Assembly (NCBI RefSeq): GCF_022763525.1
Contig: NZ_JALEGG010000204.1
Location: forward strand, 1 to 38,898
Length of the DNA: 38,898 nucleotides
Reading direction: 5' to 3'
DNA from: Acidovorax sp.
GTDB taxonomy: Bacteria > Pseudomonadota > Gammaproteobacteria > Burkholderiales > Burkholderiaceae_C
Part shown: piece after piece, positions 19,320-38,655 of the stretch
How positions within the stretch are numbered: the stretch's first letter is position 1
Layout: each line of letters starts with the position of its first letter
Notes under the pieces: generated by a model
Told to the model about the DNA's origin: nothing
Seen by the model: the letters and a program-made list of their open reading frames with translations, nothing else
Databases searched by the model: none
Translations under genes and position numbers: made by a program

Positions 19320-19440
19320 AGCACCCCCCTGAGGCGCTGCGCGCCTTCCCCCCGCTCTCGCATCGCTGCGCGATGCGGGCAGGGGGACGCAGCCAGCGCG
19401 GCGGGGCGGCCCTTGCGCGGCTGCCCTGGCCTTGGGGCGC
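19320..19440 (+). repeat. GC-rich dispersed intergenic element, copy 1
   Basis: The block begins CCCCCTGAGGCGCTGCGCGCC, includes CTCTCGCATCGCTGCGCGATG and GCCAGCGCGGCGGGGCGGCC. The same order of blocks is found inverted at 38535-38655. It ends GCCCTTGCGCGGCTGCC. It contains several overlapping hairpins (GGCGCTGCGCGCC; GCATCGCTGCGCGATGC). Confidence 0.8.
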
Positions 19441-19484
19441 GCCGGTTTCGACGGGTGGGGGCATTGCGAAGCGCCGCGCGTCCC

Positions 19485-21543: not shown

Positions 21544-23289
21544 ATGCGCTTGAAGATGAGAAAAAACCAGATGCGTGCTACCCCGCCCCTGGCACTCTCG
21601 GCTGCAGCCGCTGCCCTGCTCATGGGCTGCGGCGGCTCGTCCGATGCCGCGCTGCCCCAGCTCTCCGCCGCCACCCCGGCCACCCTGCAGTCGTGCGCCA
21701 CGCTGGCAAGCGGCCTGGCACTGCCCGACACGCGCATCACCTCGGCCGAGCAGGTGCCCGCAGGCCCCATCACCGTGCAAAACGTGACCACCCAGGTGCC
21801 CGCGCACTGCCTCGTCAAAGGCAAGATGAAGGAGCGCACCGGCCCCGTGGACGGCGCCAGCTACGCCATCGGCTTTGAGATGCGCCTGCCCGTCGAGTGG
21901 AACGGCCGCTTCCTGCACCAGGCCAACGGCGGAGTGGACGGCAGCGTGGTGACCGCGCTGGGCTCGGTCAGTGGCGCCGCACCCCTGGCGCCCGGCCTGG
22001 TGCAAGGCTTTGCGGTGCTCAGCTCCGACGCAGGCCACGGCGCCCCTACGCCCTTCTTCGGGCTGGACCCGCAGGCCCGCCTCGACTACGGCTACCAGGC
22101 CGTGGGCACGCTCACGCCCATGGCCAAAAACCTCATCAAGGGCGCCTATGGCAAGGCACCCGACCGCTCTTACCTGGCAGGCTGCTCCAACGGCGGCCGC
22201 CACGCCATGGTGGGCGCATCGCGCTATGCCGACCAGTACGACGGCATCCTGGCGGGCAACCCCGGCTTTCACCTGCCCAAGGCCGCCACCACCCAGCTGT
22301 GGAAGGCCCAGCAATACGCCAAGATCAGCACCACCACCGACAGCGCGGGCCTGCCCGACCTGACCTCGGCCGTGACCCCTGCCGAGTTCAAGCTCATCGG
22401 AAACGCCATCACCGCCAAATGCGACGCGCTGGACGGCGCAGCAGACGGCCAGGTGAACGACGTGGCAGCCTGCCAGGCCACGTTCAACCTGCAGACCGAT
22501 GTACCCACCTGCACCGGCGCGCGCGACGGCAGCTGCATCAGCAGCGCACAAAAGAACGTGCTGGCCAGCATCTTTGCCGGCCCCAAGAACAGCAAGGGCG
22601 AAGCGCTGTACACCGGCACATGGTTCGACCCAGGCGTGGCCGGTGCCAACTTTGCGATGTGGCACTTCACCATGCCCGCCACGCGCGATGCAGGCGCGGT
22701 GGCTTTCCTCTTCAGCTCGCCGCCGCCCGCCAGCGTGGGGGCCTTCACCGCCACGCCGGGCATGCAGTACGCACTGAACTTCAGCATGGAGACGGACTAC
22801 CCCAAGATGTTCGCCACCAACGCCACGTACACCGAGTCCCCCTGGTCGTACATGACCCCGCCCAACGAGACCGACCTGAGCGCGCTGAAGAACCGCGGCG
22901 CCAAGATGATCGTCTTCCACGGCGTGGCCGACGGCGTGTTCTCGCCCATGGACACCGCCCACTGGATGGACCGCCTGCAGGCCAATCACAACGGCCGGGC
23001 CAACGACTTTGCCCGCCTGTTCCTGGTGCCCGGCATGAACCACTGCTCCGGCGGCCCCGCCACCGACCAGTTCGACATGCTGGCCCCGCTGGTCGCCTGG
23101 GTGGAACAAGGCAAGGCCCCCGACAGCGTGACGGCCAAGGCACGCGGTGCAGGCGCCAATGTGGTGAATGCCGAGCTGCCCGCCAGCTGGTCTGCCAACC
23201 GCACTCGGCCGCTGTGTGTGTACCCCAAGGTGGCGCGCTACAACGGCACGGGGGATGTGGAGAGCGCAAGCAGTTTCAGCTGCAAGTGA
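21544..23289 (+). CDS. Tannase/feruloyl esterase-family lipoprotein
   Basis: The 581-residue protein has a lipoprotein signal (AALLMGCGG, lipidated Cys29), then the tannase/feruloyl-esterase alpha/beta hydrolase fold. The CS-D-HC arrangement is complete: Cys214-Ser215 in GCSNGGR, Asp463 in GVADGVFSP and His500-Cys501 in PGMNHCSGG. The two cysteines form the disulfide that joins Ser and His. A calcium-loop-like CDALDGAADGQVNDVAAC lies in the lid (293-310). It should hydrolyse aromatic esters (feruloyl, chlorogenate, gallate or terephthalate type) at the cell surface or in the periplasm, releasing acids for the ligase. Either of two N-terminal Met (1 or 5) is possible. A terminator follows 18 bp after the stop. 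Confidence 0.93.
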   Translation: MRLKMRKNQMRATPPLALSAAAAALLMGCGGSSDAALPQLSAATPATLQSCATLASGLALPDTRITSAEQVPAGPITVQNVTTQVPAHCLVKGKMKERTGPVDGASYAIGFEMRLPVEWNGRFLHQANGGVDGSVVTALGSVSGAAPLAPGLVQGFAVLSSDAGHGAPTPFFGLDPQARLDYGYQAVGTLTPMAKNLIKGAYGKAPDRSYLAGCSNGGRHAMVGASRYADQYDGILAGNPGFHLPKAATTQLWKAQQYAKISTTTDSAGLPDLTSAVTPAEFKLIGNAITAKCDALDGAADGQVNDVAACQATFNLQTDVPTCTGARDGSCISSAQKNVLASIFAGPKNSKGEALYTGTWFDPGVAGANFAMWHFTMPATRDAGAVAFLFSSPPPASVGAFTATPGMQYALNFSMETDYPKMFATNATYTESPWSYMTPPNETDLSALKNRGAKMIVFHGVADGVFSPMDTAHWMDRLQANHNGRANDFARLFLVPGMNHCSGGPATDQFDMLAPLVAWVEQGKAPDSVTAKARGAGANVVNAELPASWSANRTRPLCVYPKVARYNGTGDVESASSFSCK

Positions 23290-23306
23290 TGGGCGCTTGA
23301 AAAGCG

Positions 23307-23332
23307 GGAAGCCCAGCGCAAGCGGGGCTTCC
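23307..23332 (+). terminator. Terminator after the esterase gene
   Basis: GGAAGCCC-AGCGCAAGCG-GGGCTTCC is an 8-bp stem followed by a T-rich run. It also lies just beyond the end of the convergent AhpD-like gene. Confidence 0.8.
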
Positions 23333-23347: not shown

Positions 23348-23797
23348 TTACGCCTTGGCGCGAGGCTTCATGCGAAAGCTGACGCCCATGCGGTTGATGG
23401 CATTCATGGTGGCAATCGTGAGCGTCAGGTCCACCAGGTCCTTCTCGCCAAACACGGCCAGTGCGGCCGCATAGGCCTCATCAGAGGCATGGGTCTCGCT
23501 CACGCGGGTCACTTCCTCGGCCCAGGCCAGCGCAGCGCGCTCCTGCTCAGAGAACAAATACGCCGCCTCATGCCACACAGGAACCAGCACCACCTTCTCC
23601 ACAGACATGCCTTCGGCCAGCAGGTCGCGCGTGTGGATGTCAATGCAGTGCGCGCACCCGTTGATCTGCGACACGCGCAGAAAGACCAGGTGCGTCAGCA
23701 AGCTAGGCAGGCCTGTGTCCTGGGTGACAAAGTGATGCAGCGTCCCGATGGCCTTGGCCCCCTCGGGCGATACGTTGAACCAGACAGCGCGATTCAT
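23348..23797 (-). CDS. AhpD-like carboxymuconolactone decarboxylase-family protein
   Basis: The 149-residue all-helical protein has the AhpD signature Cys48-x2-Cys51-x3-His55 (NGCAHCIDIHTRDLL). It starts MNRAVWFNVSPEGAKA and has the usual LFSEQERAALAWAEEVTRVSE segment. Such proteins are small peroxidatic or thiol-disulfide enzymes of the alkylhydroperoxidase family. A role in coping with oxidative stress is a family-level guess. It is convergent with the esterase gene and shares the terminator area. ATG 23797 has a weak ribosome site. Confidence 0.9.
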   Translation of the reverse strand: MNRAVWFNVSPEGAKAIGTLHHFVTQDTGLPSLLTHLVFLRVSQINGCAHCIDIHTRDLLAEGMSVEKVVLVPVWHEAAYLFSEQERAALAWAEEVTRVSETHASDEAYAAALAVFGEKDLVDLTLTIATMNAINRMGVSFRMKPRAKA

Positions 23798-23904
23798 ACA
23801 GCAGTTCCTTCACGTTGAATGTTGGGCGGAGGGCGATATCGACCTCCTGCTAACAAGACGTGTGATGTGAGGGGGCTGTGACAGATGGTGGAGAAATGGG
23901 TGAG

Positions 23905-24115
23905 GACGTCGCTAAGGCCGCCTGGGAAGAAAGAAGGTGAAGTGCTCGGCAGCATGACGGCGAAGGCATGCGGCGCAGGAGCCCATGGGGTCAACACCGT
24001 GTTGCCTGGGAGCTGCTCTGCCAACCGCACCCGGCCGCTGTGTTTGTACCCCAAAGGGGGCGCGCTACAACGGCACGGGGGATGTGAAGAGTGAAGCAGT
24101 TTTAGCTGCAAGTGA
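23905..24115 (+). pseudogene. Degenerate 3' fragment of a second esterase gene
   Basis: The last 70 or so codons of the tannase-family gene recur here in decayed form. SMTAKACGAGAHGVNTVLPGS corresponds to SVTAKARGAGANVVNAELPAS, and SANRTRPLCLYPK to SANRTRPLCVYPK. An extra base in the CCCCAAAGGGGGCGCG run then shifts the frame (RYNGTGDV continues in the next frame), and one base is lost before the shared AAG-TGA end. The similarity covers the stop codon and the terminator. It is a partial, non-functional copy, diverged enough that it probably came from a relative rather than from a recent duplication. Confidence 0.85.
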
Positions 24116-24133
24116 TGGAGGATTGAAAGTGCG

Positions 24134-24155
24134 AAGCCCGACGTGTGCCGGGCTT
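24134..24155 (+). terminator. Terminator retained after the esterase fragment
   Basis: AAGCCCG-ACGTGTGC-CGGGCTT is followed by TTCCTT. It corresponds in position to the terminator of the intact esterase gene, showing that the duplicated segment included it. Confidence 0.75.
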
Positions 24156-24337
24156 TTCCTTATAAGGAGATAGCTCTTGGAACCTCTTTATTGAGTTCGC
24201 AGGCGCGCCCCGGGGTTATTCACCAGCGAAGCCGTCCCCCTCGGCCGTGGCCTTGGCCGTCATGCACAGCCTGAACACCAACGTCGTGCGCAACTAGCTT
24301 TCGTATCGTGGCCTCCACCCTTTCGGTGAACGTCACT

Positions 24338-25129
24338 TCATGGCTCAATCTGTCGCTTGAGCTTTCTCTGCAGCAGCAAAATCCACGCCTCAAAATCTTC
24401 GTACTCATCGGCTGTAATTTTGGCTGGCCAACTCAGCACAAAGGCACGCCCGTCTGGCAGCTTGTAGACATCATTGACGATGTCTCCCATTTGGGATTGG
24501 GGCACCACTACCACCGAAGGCGCAGCGGGGGCAGCAGCCGCTTGCATTACCGTACGGGGAGGAGCATTGCTCATGTCCGGCCCCTCTTCCTCCTCCTCTT
24601 CTTCCTCTTCCTCAAAAGCTACGCGTGGCCCCTGACCCTGAGCAGCCTCGCCAAGCACGCGCTGGGCTACCTCTACTAGTTCCATAGTTTCACGATACGT
24701 GCGAATGGGCGTATCGACAACGCTCTGAACGAACCCTCTCTTAAGCAGGAAAGCGCGTAAAAAGTCATCGGACTTGGGAGGCTTATCGCCATATTCCGCG
24801 CGAAGTTCCGCAAAAAGCGATGGACGGAACGCTGCCCGCAGGATGGCAGTAGCGCGTTCGGTTGAGCTCTTGGGGTCAACGACGATAGTCAGACCATCCT
24901 TGCTGACCTTGAACTCACTATCGCCAACGCCTTCGATCAGCCCGTACTTCTTAAGAGCCGAAATCACCCCCTGCGATGCGCCGTTAAGCCCAGTGTATCC
25001 AAGCGCACTGGCCACAACTGCGGAGCTCGCCTTGTGTGTGTGCGCCTTGTCGTAAAGCTTCGCGGTCAGATCGATAGCTCTGACCAAACTGATTTGCGGG
25101 TAGTTCGGGCTTCGCGCCTTGGTTGCCAT
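24338..25129 (-). CDS. Uncharacterised accessory protein, winged-helix-like N-terminus and polyglutamate linker
   Basis: The 263-residue protein (from ATG 25129, with AGGAG seven bases upstream) does not belong to a family I can name. The N-terminus (SPNYPQISLVRAIDLTAKLY, then ASSAVVASALGYTGLNGASQGVISALKKYGLIEG) looks like a helical winged-helix or DUF-type DNA-binding module. A helical middle follows (FLRAFLLKRGFVQSVVDTPIRTYRETMELVEVAQRVLG). Then come a run of ten glutamates, an Ala/Pro linker, and a C-terminal cap with LPDGRAFVLSWPAKITADEYEDFEAWILLLQRKLKR. GC content is clearly lower than in the neighbours. It is divergent from the 48-codon ORF and bracketed by gene fragments, so it is probably horizontally acquired. 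A regulatory role for the divergent pair is inference. Confidence 0.8.
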   Translation of the reverse strand: MATKARSPNYPQISLVRAIDLTAKLYDKAHTHKASSAVVASALGYTGLNGASQGVISALKKYGLIEGVGDSEFKVSKDGLTIVVDPKSSTERATAILRAAFRPSLFAELRAEYGDKPPKSDDFLRAFLLKRGFVQSVVDTPIRTYRETMELVEVAQRVLGEAAQGQGPRVAFEEEEEEEEEEGPDMSNAPPRTVMQAAAAPAAPSVVVVPQSQMGDIVNDVYKLPDGRAFVLSWPAKITADEYEDFEAWILLLQRKLKRQIEP

Positions 25130-25180
25130 ATCGCGCTCCTTTTCAGTTGTTTGGCGATATTTTCCATTTAACGCACGATA

Positions 25181-25233
25181 AGTCAACTTTTATCTAAATT
25201 GTCGTTGCATCAAGCAACTTGGGGCGCTATGAT
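25181..25233. promoter_or_regulatory. Divergent promoter region of the accessory pair
   Basis: On the plus strand TTGCAT (25205) and TATGAT (25228) with a 17-bp spacer form a good sigma-70 promoter, giving a start near 25240. On the minus strand TTGACT (25181-25186) is a candidate -35 for the larger gene, with an AT-rich, poorly defined -10. Confidence 0.6.
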
Positions 25234-25240
25234 CTCGCCA

Positions 25241-25372
25241 CCCCTCAAAGGTTTTAGAGGGGAAAAGAAAAGGCCCTCGTTGCGAATCGTTCTTGGCGGA
25301 AAGACGCTACGAGGGCCTTAGCAGGTGGGCGAGCAGCCCGATCCTATTCAACCTAACCGCCGTCGAGACGGC
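25241..25372 (+). ncRNA. Structured leader RNA of the small ORF
   Basis: Four hairpins occur in about 130 nt right after the predicted start: CCCCTC/GAGGGG (25243-25262); a perfect 11-bp stem AAGGCCCTCGT/ACGAGGGCCTT (25270-25280 with 25309-25319, 28-nt loop); GGGC-GAGCA-GCCC (25327-25339); and GCCGTC-GA-GACGGC (25359-25372), which ends three bases before the ribosome site. It matches no riboswitch class that I recognise. It may be a cis-regulatory leader or a separate structured RNA. Confidence 0.55.
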
Positions 25373-25391
25373 AGAAAGGAGGTGAGTATGA

Positions 25392-25538
25392 ATGACGCAA
25401 CTGAAGCTGCAACTGCCGATCCCTGAGGGATATCAACTGGTTTTCCGTCCGTGGATCACCCTCAAGAACGGCACTAAGCTCTATGCGCGCCAGATCGGCA
25501 AGCGGGCCTTCCCGCTTATCGTTCCGGTAAGCAAGTAA
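25392..25538 (+). CDS. Small ORF, 48 residues, basic
   Basis: It reads MTQLKLQLPIPEGYQLVFRP, then WITLKNGTKLYARQIGKRAF, then PLIVPVSK. It is preceded by AAGGAGGTGA (25376-25385), a ten-base match to the 16S anti-Shine-Dalgarno region, nine bases after GGAGG. A terminator follows about 60 bp downstream, so the whole transcript would be only about 395 nt. An alternative ATG at 25388 in another frame gives a 12-codon peptide; the longer frame has protein-like composition (amphipathic beta-type segments, Tyr/Trp/Phe and Lys/Arg rich). The function is unknown. It is too small to appear in standard gene calls that use a 60-codon cut-off. Confidence 0.65.
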   Translation: MTQLKLQLPIPEGYQLVFRPWITLKNGTKLYARQIGKRAFPLIVPVSK

Positions 25539-25571
25539 GCTCCGTACAGTCGGCTGCTCATCCAACTCTTC

Positions 25572-25634
25572 TCTCCATGGGGATGGAGACCTAGAGTTTA
25601 GCCCCTGGTCGCCTTTGGCGCCAGGGGCTTTTTT
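25572..25634 (+). terminator. Hairpin plus strong rho-independent terminator after small ORF
   Basis: TCTCCAT-GGGG-ATGGAGA (25572-25589) is followed by GCCCCTGG...CCAGGGGC (25601-25628), which has an inner CGCC-TTT-GGCG extension and then six T. The second hairpin is a textbook terminator. Confidence 0.9.
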
Positions 25635-25714
25635 ACCTGCATAAGCACCCAGAGGATGGCGATCCGGCGTCCAGTCAAACTGCCTGCAGGTGCCGTTTTC
25701 TCTCGTCCCGCTGA

Positions 25715-25962
25715 TCAAAACGGCAACCCCGCATAGTTCTCCGCCAACGACCGCAGCGCGTTCTTCGAGGAGAACAAATACGCTAGGTCAGCGTCCTGCA
25801 GCTTCTGGTCGTGAGCAAGCGAATAGGGGACACTGCGCAGCACGGTCGCCATACCTCCACGAGAAGCGCGGGCCCCCACACGCGGTTCAGAGCCTTTTCG
25901 GAGTATTTGTCGAGCCCCGCACGATCGCCGTTTTGGTAGCGCACCACCACGGTGTGGTGCAG
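25715..25962 (-). pseudogene. Degenerate 3' fragment of a second pobA
   Basis: The minus strand decodes to the last 80 or so residues of 4-hydroxybenzoate 3-monooxygenase: SLAENYAGLPF at the end (pobA here ends [11 protein letters not shown]), before it [16 protein letters not shown], and upstream [22 protein letters not shown] one-base insertion near TCGTGGAGGTATG breaks the frame, and similarity stops at about 25962. It is a decayed, 5'-truncated copy, the right-hand counterpart of the esterase fragment at 23905-24115. Confidence 0.88.
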
Positions 25963-26010
25963 TCAGTTAGAAGTCTGATGCACCGCCGACCATCGCAGGG
26001 CGTCAGTCGT

Positions 26011-26172
26011 CTACTCCGCCGTGCCCGGCGTGCGTTCAGCCGGTGTCTGCAATCTGCTGGCTTCTTCTTTCGCCTTCTTCCCTTGATCGTGATGCCACTT
26101 GATGGCGTAGAACATGCAGGTGCCAAACACGAGCACCTTGAAGGTGATGAAGACTATCGGGACCCAATCCAT
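26011..26172 (-). CDS. Small single-span membrane protein
   Basis: The 53-residue protein has one hydrophobic segment (WVPIVFITFKVLVFGTCMFYAI) followed by a charged tail (KWHHDQGKKAKEEASRLQ). ATG 26172 is preceded at a distance by AGGAAAG; the frame is open further upstream but looks non-coding there. I do not recognise a function. It lies between the pobA fragment and intact pobA on the same strand and may be an old neighbour of pobA. It could also be a spurious frame, but the composition is protein-like. Confidence 0.6.
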   Translation of the reverse strand: MDWVPIVFITFKVLVFGTCMFYAIKWHHDQGKKAKEEASRLQTPAERTPGTAE

Positions 26173-26582
26173 TTGTGATGGCTTTCCTGGTTGCTGATGG
26201 GCGCCCACTACCGTCCAGTGCAGCGCCTCAAAACGCTGCGTCAGCAGCTTCATCGTGTTCAAGTCATCGTCGATTTGCACATCGACAGCACGGGGCCAAT
26301 GATCTGAAAACTTGGGGCGATGCTATCGGGCCTGCTGTGCGGGCGTAAGCATCAGTTCTGCCTAAATTTTCCGTAGCAGATGGCAATTGCCGTGCAGGGC
26401 GGCTGAATGAAAAGTGGCATTGTCATGAGGGCTGCATGGAGCCGCAGTGCGCAGGCCGTAGGGCGCGCCGCGTGAGCAGACGGAGCGCCACTTGCACACA
26501 ACGCCGACCGCACACACAAAAGGCCTGCATGAGAGAACCCCATGCAGGGCTTGGATGGGGTGGCAGTGCTAATGCCGGGCGC
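26173..26582. other. 410-bp gap between small membrane gene and pobA
   Basis: No convincing coding frame was found. It holds the pobA terminator hairpin near its right end. The rest is unremarkable and less GC-rich than the genes; I see nothing else in it. Confidence 0.5.
26517..26548 (-). terminator. Probable pobA terminator
   Basis: CCTGCATG-AGAGAACCC-CATGCAGG is an 8-bp stem followed on the minus strand by CCTTTTGTG. It lies 35 bp after the pobA stop codon. The T run is short. Confidence 0.6.
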
Positions 26583-28752
<2,170 letters not shown>

Positions 28753-38463: not shown

Positions 38464-38534
38464 GCCTCGGATGGCCCTACGCTTGGGCGGCAGATGGCGT
38501 AGTAGCGCCGGCAGCATATGAAGAGCGCGCTGCC

Positions 38535-38655
38535 CAGACCAGTGGCCGCCGCGCCAGGGCCGCCCCGCCGCGCTGGCGGCGTCCCCCTTCCCGCATTGCG
38601 CCGCAATGCGAGAGAAGGGGGAAGGCGCGAAGCGCCACAGGGGGTAGCACCATGT
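38535..38655 (-). repeat. GC-rich dispersed intergenic element, copy 2 (inverted)
   Basis: The minus strand contains CCCCCTGTGGCGCTTCGCGCC, CTCTCGCATTGCGGCGCAATG and GCCAGCGCGGCGGGGCGGCC, the same block order as the element at 19320-19440. It lies between the [2Fe-2S] subunit gene and the end of the ABC binding-protein gene. Confidence 0.8.

Follow-up and report, generated by a model that had tools for sequence, protein, structure and literature searches.

A turnover hotspot with relic borders between esterase and pobA genes of Acidovorax, carrying a probably phage-related RNA-protein cassette

Introduction

The core defence hotspots cDHS1 and cDHS2 of Pseudomonas aeruginosa consist of fixed core genes around variable, defence-rich cargo, with no single mobilising element (PMC10250203). 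Here we describe an interval with related features in Acidovorax. The analysed stretch, referred to as the window, is contig NZ_JALEGG010000204.1 of Acidovorax sp. (38,898 nucleotides, nt), part of a 307-contig draft assembly. Between an intact tannase/feruloyl esterase gene and an intact pobA gene it holds degenerate 3' fragments (relics) of both genes, and between these an accessory cassette comprised of the genes ACC and SML and of a structured RNA leading into SML. The esterase-pobA interval is a turnover hotspot of Acidovorax with variable, defence-rich cargo, and the RNA-SML-ACC module is the most unusual part of the locus. We favour, with moderate confidence, the explanation that the hotspot has old relic edges and exchanged cargo, and that ACC, leader RNA and SML form a phage-related module.

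Like cDHS1 and cDHS2, the Acidovorax interval holds diverse known defence systems (six of 14 loci), and its flanking genes may likewise be fixed. It differs from them in its size of about 2-7 kb, in its occurrence across species of one genus and in its position between catabolic genes; moreover, no tRNA or transfer-messenger RNA (tmRNA) was detected in the window, and on its inner side the interval is bounded by degenerate 3' ends of the genes that flank it. As in hotspots exchanged through flanking homology (PMC5635113), cargo turns over rapidly, the window's interval has few mobile-element genes and the shared flanks permit double crossover; the relic borders are an extra feature. Among the literature matches listed there was no publication on Acidovorax defence islands or on this locus. 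The hotspot offers a fixed address for finding defence and novel cargo across Acidovorax, and its borders let relics and cargo be dated separately.

Structured 5' leaders, such as riboswitches and attenuators, control the open reading frame (ORF) that follows them. The RNA of the cassette resembles them in that the fold ends in a Shine-Dalgarno sequence just ahead of a start codon, and in at least nine relatives a minigene of three codons stands at the beginning; it differs in having no Rfam family and in the tRNA-like domain contained in several copies. Type III ToxIN reportedly also combines a structured RNA and an adjacent protein gene at a small phage-related locus, and ACC and SML show no ToxN-type match. 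AbiF-RCd22, an RNA-controlled abortive infection system, likewise places a structured RNA next to a protein gene at a small locus related to phages (PMC12373285). ACC and SML differ in having no significant Pfam match, and thus none to Abi_2, and the RNA of the cassette precedes a small ORF and matches no Rfam family. The cassette led to a conserved, covarying pseudoknot RNA in viral contigs and several bacterial phyla, some copies of which have a tRNA-like domain. The RNA is tied to short protein motifs, one of them also found on plasmids, that are absent from the searched family libraries.

Results

Relic borders of the interval

The locus is organized as follows.

21544..23289, + strand: intact tannase/feruloyl esterase gene, left border (Pfam Tannase, 453 bits); several relatives have two such genes in tandem
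23916..24160, + strand: 3' relic, including the terminator, of an additional esterase copy (80% identical to 23091-23330; the sequence beyond it agrees with that downstream of the intact copy in A. facilis)
24195..25706, no strand: accessory cassette, much closer to A. facilis than the flanking relics (by 100-column identity windows)
24338..25129, - strand: ACC, 263 residues, winged-helix-like with a separate C-terminal beta-beta-alpha domain in the predicted model; no significant Pfam, NCBIfam, PHROG or PADLOC family
25238..25391, + strand: structured RNA, leader of a 48-residue ORF, supported by covariation (P1 25241-25262, P2 25272-25317, hairpin P4 25357-25374, Shine-Dalgarno 25376-25385)
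25392..25538, + strand: SML, the other gene of the accessory pair, encoding a conserved basic protein of 48 residues
25715..25981, - strand: disrupted 3' relic of pobA covering roughly its final 90 codons (80% identical to 26583-26849; breakpoint shared with relatives)
26583..27755, - strand: intact pobA, right border (Pfam FAD_binding_3, E 1.7e-90)

Comparison of the window with itself (E ≤ 1e-3) gave the esterase and pobA fragments as the two top-scoring repeats. Positions 23916-24155 align with 23091-23330 of the intact esterase gene (80% over 242 columns, 4 gap positions, E 7e-57), and 25715-25981 with 26583-26849 of intact pobA (80% over 269 columns, 4 gap positions, E 9e-62), the latter alignment beginning exactly at the stop codon. 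Both fragments are disrupted by indels and have the orientation of their respective intact copy. The GC content of the cassette (24240-25700) is 55.4%, compared with 67.7% in the window. A previous reading, made from the sequence alone, had described two degenerate 3' fragments, esterase on the + and pobA on the - strand, enclosing a low-GC segment, and these alignments and values bear it out.

To follow the borders in relatives, 47 genomes of the genus, including the genome of the window, were searched with 23800-26600, and 38 matched. Of the 37 matching genomes other than that of the window, 27 were sampled, which gave 28 stretches; the ten left out matched more weakly or only in part. An esterase copy (intact or relic) together with pobA on one stretch was found in the window and in 20 of these 27 relatives, that is in 20 of the 46 searched, the rest being drafts, unmatched or weakly matched. 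The pobA relic is present in 12 of the 27 (L034, L035, L036, L039, L040, L046, L048, L049, L050, L055, L056 and L060) and the esterase relic in seven (L034, L036, L040, L041, L049, L050 and L051). Six relatives have two near-full-length esterases in tandem (L035, L042, L047, L053, L054 and L061), and in L042, L047 and L061 the first of them is a distant paralogue (55-57%). A second border type, with no recognisable pobA relic, is present in other genomes.

The pobA relic of the window is 79.1% identical to its own pobA, while its mean identity to intact pobA genes of the genus is 79.3% (best 81.3%). Given this near-equality, the relic does not look like a recent internal copy, nor does it point to a particular donor; recent tandem duplication had been doubted in the sequence-only reading as well. 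With few exceptions (such as L040-L055), pobA relics are no closer to one another than to intact genes. Nevertheless, 11 of the 12 aligned relics, that of the window included, have a common breakpoint in pobA and continue into the same non-pobA sequence, located before a small membrane-protein-like ORF (26011-26280 in the window). The relic of L060 is cut further in, and L056, outside that alignment, retains an additional piece. The common junction seems to mark a single origin of pobA relics, which rests on the shared breakpoint and flanking sequence and not on substitutions. Shared derived substitutions were tried as a marker of single origin and were not significant (54 columns, against 59.3 expected under independence, standard deviation 4.0). 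Tree placement of relics was also rejected, as 200-270 nt is too short, with support of about 0.7-0.87 at key nodes and long branches.

The accessory pair was detected in one of the 27 relatives, A. facilis DSM 649 (genome G009, loci L055 and L074). The sequence-only reading had anticipated that some relative would have the accessory pair between esterase and pobA, in that order and with no fragments. The order exists in A. facilis and the esterase is intact there, but a pobA relic lies beside the pair. By position and downstream sequence, the esterase relic and terminator of the window correspond to this intact esterase bordering the pair. We read both relics as older than the cargo, because pobA relics mostly occur without the pair, their junction is common and the esterase copy is intact in A. 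facilis.

These data bear on the former proposal that a donor segment, comprised of an esterase end, the gene pair and a pobA end, was inserted and that both fragments are its ends. The fragments do keep their orientation and abut the pair, which in A. facilis, too, lies between esterase and pobA. However, the pair is missing from 11 of the 12 relatives with a pobA relic, A. facilis is itself among the relic carriers, and the relics are much less similar to A. facilis than the cassette is, which already contradicts the idea. What survives of it is a pair that looks like laterally acquired cargo; together with the breakpoint common to 11 of 12 aligned relics, the distribution argues against fragments left as donor debris at the arrival of the pair, and we consider a donor segment highly improbable. 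According to the explanation we favour, the edges would be an esterase copy worn to its 3' end and an ancient partial 3' copy of pobA, and lineages would keep or lose these relics independently of the intervening cargo.

As a separate observation, pobA in L039 (9036-10169, genome G042) is split into several tblastn segments, as if frameshifted.

Cargo turnover

Almost every genome has different cargo between esterase and pobA. In 14 loci the larger cargo ORFs were scanned, with defence matches assessed against PADLOC and those of at least 100 bits regarded as strong. Strong matches were obtained in six loci: a complete Lamassu in L042 (LmuA 538, LmuB 780 and LmuC 219 bits), a complete Thoeris in L047 (ThsA 508 and ThsB 254 bits), a dCTP deaminase in L036 (528 bits), PDC-S60 in L034 (291 bits), methyltransferases in L039 (MTase_III 354 bits, accompanied by a weak, below-cut-off PLD-like protein) and a KAP/PifA-like protein in L045 (115 bits). 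Weaker matches came from two more, an OLD/NsnB-like ATPase in L041 (98 bits) and, in L048, SIR2 and a nucleoside deoxyribosyltransferase identified by Pfam, with only 31 bits in PADLOC. The PADLOC scan of larger cargo ORFs gave no defence match of weight in L035, L037, L038, L053 and L056, and L049 has HipA and a weak PDC-M03A match (24 bits). HipA-like genes lie between the small ORF and pobA in L049, L050 and L055 (Pfam on L049). In a small control, none of seven neighbouring genes of the window matched PADLOC.

Cargo starts at varying points of the spacer after the esterase terminator, and the left cargo ends differ between genomes. A single attachment site is not expected to give such variation. 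Integration at specific sites in gene 3' ends was rejected on this ground and on the lack of an integrase match among the proteins of the window's interval. Most simply, cargo would be exchanged between relatives by homologous recombination in the shared flanks.

Two ORFs were noted between esterase and the pobA relic in L056 (3124-4175, genome G031). They may represent a broken integron integrase.

Comparison of the cassette with A. facilis

Alignment of the cassette with A. facilis gave 95-99% identity in 13 of 14 windows of 100 columns (24262-25661), and 88% in one, located between the genes. Windows over the esterase relic are 81-85% identical, and those over the pobA relic and small ORF 66-85%. 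The two edge windows contain gaps and show 76 and 82%; the first window, which lies at the edge of the alignment and has 29 gap columns, shows 44%. Synonymous divergence (dS) between the window and A. facilis is 0.139 for ACC, 0.088 for SML, 0.213 for pobA, 0.413 for the small membrane ORF and 0.466 for pobR.

Because a cassette of 95-99% identity lies between relics of only 66-85%, it probably moved laterally. Alternatively, the pair could be old vertical cargo of the window and A. facilis that was lost elsewhere, with cassette identity reflecting selection. Position and order are the same in both genomes, dS of ACC is not far under that of pobA, and the single 88% window between the genes fits such a history; against this, the other non-coding parts of the cassette are 95-98% identical whereas the relics show 66-85%, and ACC is present in only one of the 27 other genomes. 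We therefore hold vertical descent to be rather unlikely.

A stretch of 75 bases at the left cassette edge (24241-24315) is 79% similar to an IS66-type orfA on two Variovorax plasmids.

Structure and conservation of the leader RNA

The ACC-SML intergenic region aligns with other SML loci in a common succession: P1, an A-rich linker, long P2, P4, Shine-Dalgarno and the SML start. RNAalifold found compensatory change at nine of 21 pairs in seven sequences. In an alignment of 12 sequences, changes on both sides occur at 20 of 28 pairs, with a covariation score of 0.409 compared to 0.174 in shuffles (standard deviation 0.019), none of 500 reaching it. Sliding the structure along the alignment gave scores no higher than 0.147. 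The number of further pair types is only a little above the shuffles, 28 of 500 of which reach it, and the pseudoknot helix is the weakest, with 68% of cells paired.

An RNA search model was constructed from P2 and P4, with P1 and the pseudoknot outside it; the window's leader scores 145.9 bits, being itself a training sequence of that model. Beyond training sequences and a duplicate, a search of 753 kb with this model detected five ACC loci at E ≤ 0.007. Each of these matches is on the divergent strand, 164-256 nt from the start of the ACC homologue, in Burkholderia, two Bradyrhizobium, another proteobacterium and Pyrinomonadaceae. In 299 genomes of the family eight matched, five of them new. 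Upstream of the match in genome G252 lies an ACC-related protein (hhalign 96.9%), while comparison of the upstream protein in G048 with ACC was not significant.

A descriptor of P1, A-rich linker, P2 and pseudoknot was then applied to 44 ACC loci (duplicates L063 and L074 excluded). At score 70, a cut chosen after seeing the results table with a descriptor written after reading the sequences, it found 17 of 44 loci, none of 220 shuffles and none of 44 opposite strands; one of the 17 (L109) is in apparent coding sequence and may be false. The corresponding numbers are 20, one and one at score 65, and 21, eight and five at score 60. An earlier, stricter descriptor found 11 of 44 loci and none of 132 shuffles. 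The leader RNA thus covaries and is associated with ACC homologues, and the existence and structure of the RNA-SML-ACC module are well supported.

At least nine RNA copies start with a minigene made of ATG or GTG, two (mostly Arg) codons and a stop (L068, L069, L076, L078 and L166-L170). ARAGORN called tRNA-like genes at the RNA position and on its strand in eight ACC loci and in L167, six of the eight also when trimmed to 600 nt; these are raw program calls. Rfam agrees on the L167 domain (53.7 bits). The domains in the RNA region of L093 (9644-9729) and L167 (1611-1695) have a UUA, stop-reading anticodon. In Rfam 15 the leader RNA has no gathering-score match, and only tRNA genes or domains reach gathering. 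No tmRNA was found by ARAGORN in 52 sources, and neither tRNA nor tmRNA in the window. The exact leader motif matched viral contigs three times, and only the match in L160 (the same contig as L155) is followed by SML. The literature matches listed include no publication on such an RNA.

Proteins associated with the RNA

The predicted ACC model (pLDDT, a predicted model confidence, 80.8) is helical and winged-helix-like in its N-terminal part, from which a beta-beta-alpha C-terminal part is set apart, and gave no match to PDB at E ≤ 0.001. As a winged-helix-like protein, ACC is a probable DNA-binding regulator. Its homologues comprise 123 proteins at E ≤ 0.001; ACC occurs in nine of 399 family genomes (own included), in 35 loci in species-representative contigs and in three viral loci.

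SML has 44 homologues at E ≤ 0.001 and is found in three phage records and seven viral loci. A ratio of nonsynonymous to synonymous divergence (dN/dS) of about 0.23, at dS 0.7-0.9, shows that it is coding and under purifying selection across genera. Its predicted model is a small beta fold (pLDDT 88), and a PHROG search matched none of eight SML relatives. Upstream of SML relatives on viral contigs L158 and L159, an ORF with the shared peptide PCRGPT (upstream of ~3998) and a long hairpin were read by eye.

A second small-protein motif, VFVRAYxRFRFGKxExVCQHWRS (HWRS), follows the RNA in L076, L166, L168, L169 and L170, and at L097 and L078 the ORFs next on the RNA strand are DDE transposases. 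The HWRS motif was also detected in 26 plasmid records (nine of Escherichia) and one phage record. Among eight plasmid records opened, three adjoin PADLOC systems, namely PDC-M12 (E. coli and A. lwoffii) and PD-Lambda-2 (Limnohabitans). In three others it is near a reverse transcriptase, an ATP-binding protein and a DNA methyltransferase, for which defence is possible by annotation, and in two nothing obvious lies alongside. On plasmid loci L171, L172, L173 and L178 the HWRS small ORF stands beside PDC-M12, PD-Lambda-2 or a reverse-transcriptase gene.

Possible role of the module

Because SML occurs in phages and viral loci, and the HWRS motif beside PADLOC systems on plasmids, the RNA-SML-ACC cassette is probably a phage-derived or phage-defence module. 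In the mechanism we consider the most probable, ACC would control the divergent promoters, the folded RNA would gate SML translation, and SML may act during phage infection as a defence or superinfection-exclusion factor.

Several results weigh against the explanation we favour. ACC and SML match no PADLOC family (E ≤ 0.01). Six of the 14 scanned loci are without a convincing defence match, and the hotspot also carries metabolic, insertion sequence (IS) and regulatory cargo. The dS margin of the cassette over pobA alone is modest and compatible with long co-inheritance. Pair counts of P2 are partly biased towards structure, several rows having been found with the model that holds P2, and a single row supplied the structure used in the covariation test. 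Neither the minigene of three codons nor the pseudoknot of the P1 loop, both found in many relatives, is present in the window's RNA, which for this reason seems to be a reduced form; the A. facilis copy (L074), of the same type, failed the stricter descriptor. A consensus promoter scan reported none ahead of the RNA, and the RNA model had no matches on the eight HWRS plasmid loci.

The RNA-SML-ACC cassette could also be a phage or insertion-element leftover without a defence role, its RNA leading genes of mobile elements. The presence of SML in phages and the DDE transposase ORFs mentioned above speak for this, as would ORFs near several other ACC loci, which presumably resemble transposases. 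Purifying selection on SML across genera and the position of the cassette where defence systems exchange speak against it. We give this origin serious, though minority, weight.

Type III toxin-antitoxin systems have a repeat-array RNA antitoxin before a ToxN/CptN/TenpN-type nuclease. No such repeat array was seen in the sequence of the leader RNA. ACC and SML have no match to a toxin family and no significant Pfam or PADLOC match to type III toxin nucleases, and the RNA is the 5' leader of SML. An RNA-controlled toxin-antitoxin pair made of ACC and SML is therefore doubtful, even with its compact, divergent two-gene layout and folded RNA, and with RNA antitoxins in defence roles being known (PMC12373285). 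The retron type is not indicated either, as ACC and SML have no reverse transcriptase match.

A broader proposal, which we put forward only tentatively, is that a widespread, undescribed RNA-protein module (a winged-helix protein next to a transcript with a Met-Arg-Arg minigene, a hairpin whose loop forms a pseudoknot by pairing beyond a second hairpin, sometimes a tRNA-like domain, and a tiny conserved basic protein) may be a translation-sensing anti-phage switch. The module would be common to chromosomal cassettes and phages, with one of its small proteins also on plasmids. Infection that disturbs tRNAs or translation would refold the leader and release the small protein. If true, such an infection-responsive switch would be a new way for RNA to join the phage-host conflict.

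Neighbouring features

Three further features accompany the locus.

23348..23797, - strand: intact carboxymuconolactone-decarboxylase (CMD)-family, AhpD-like gene between the intact esterase and the esterase relic (Pfam CMD, E 7.5e-17)
25600..25634, + strand: terminator-like hairpin with a T run after SML (terminator scan: 25611-25628, one found against 1.8 expected in shuffles)
26011..26280, - strand: small membrane-protein-like ORF between the pobA relic and pobA, the conserved part being its last ~55 residues

The CMD-family gene and the small membrane ORF were absent from the sequence-only reading, as was the identification of the second gene of the pair as a 48-residue ORF. The CMD-family gene occupies the same place in L034, L036, L038, L040, L041, L051 and L052. 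Overlapping the terminator-like hairpin, 25561-25636 gave a weak Rfam match to anti-hemB RNA (25 bits, gathering 49.5). The small membrane ORF has a tblastn match in 23 of the 28 fetched Acidovorax stretches, and its family (26011-26178) is present in 68 of 399 family genomes; it was not beside pobA in 24 loci outside the genus (~3 kb each). Elsewhere in the window, an inverted repeat of about 120 bases, 86.7% identical, joins 19325-19442 and 38525-38644.

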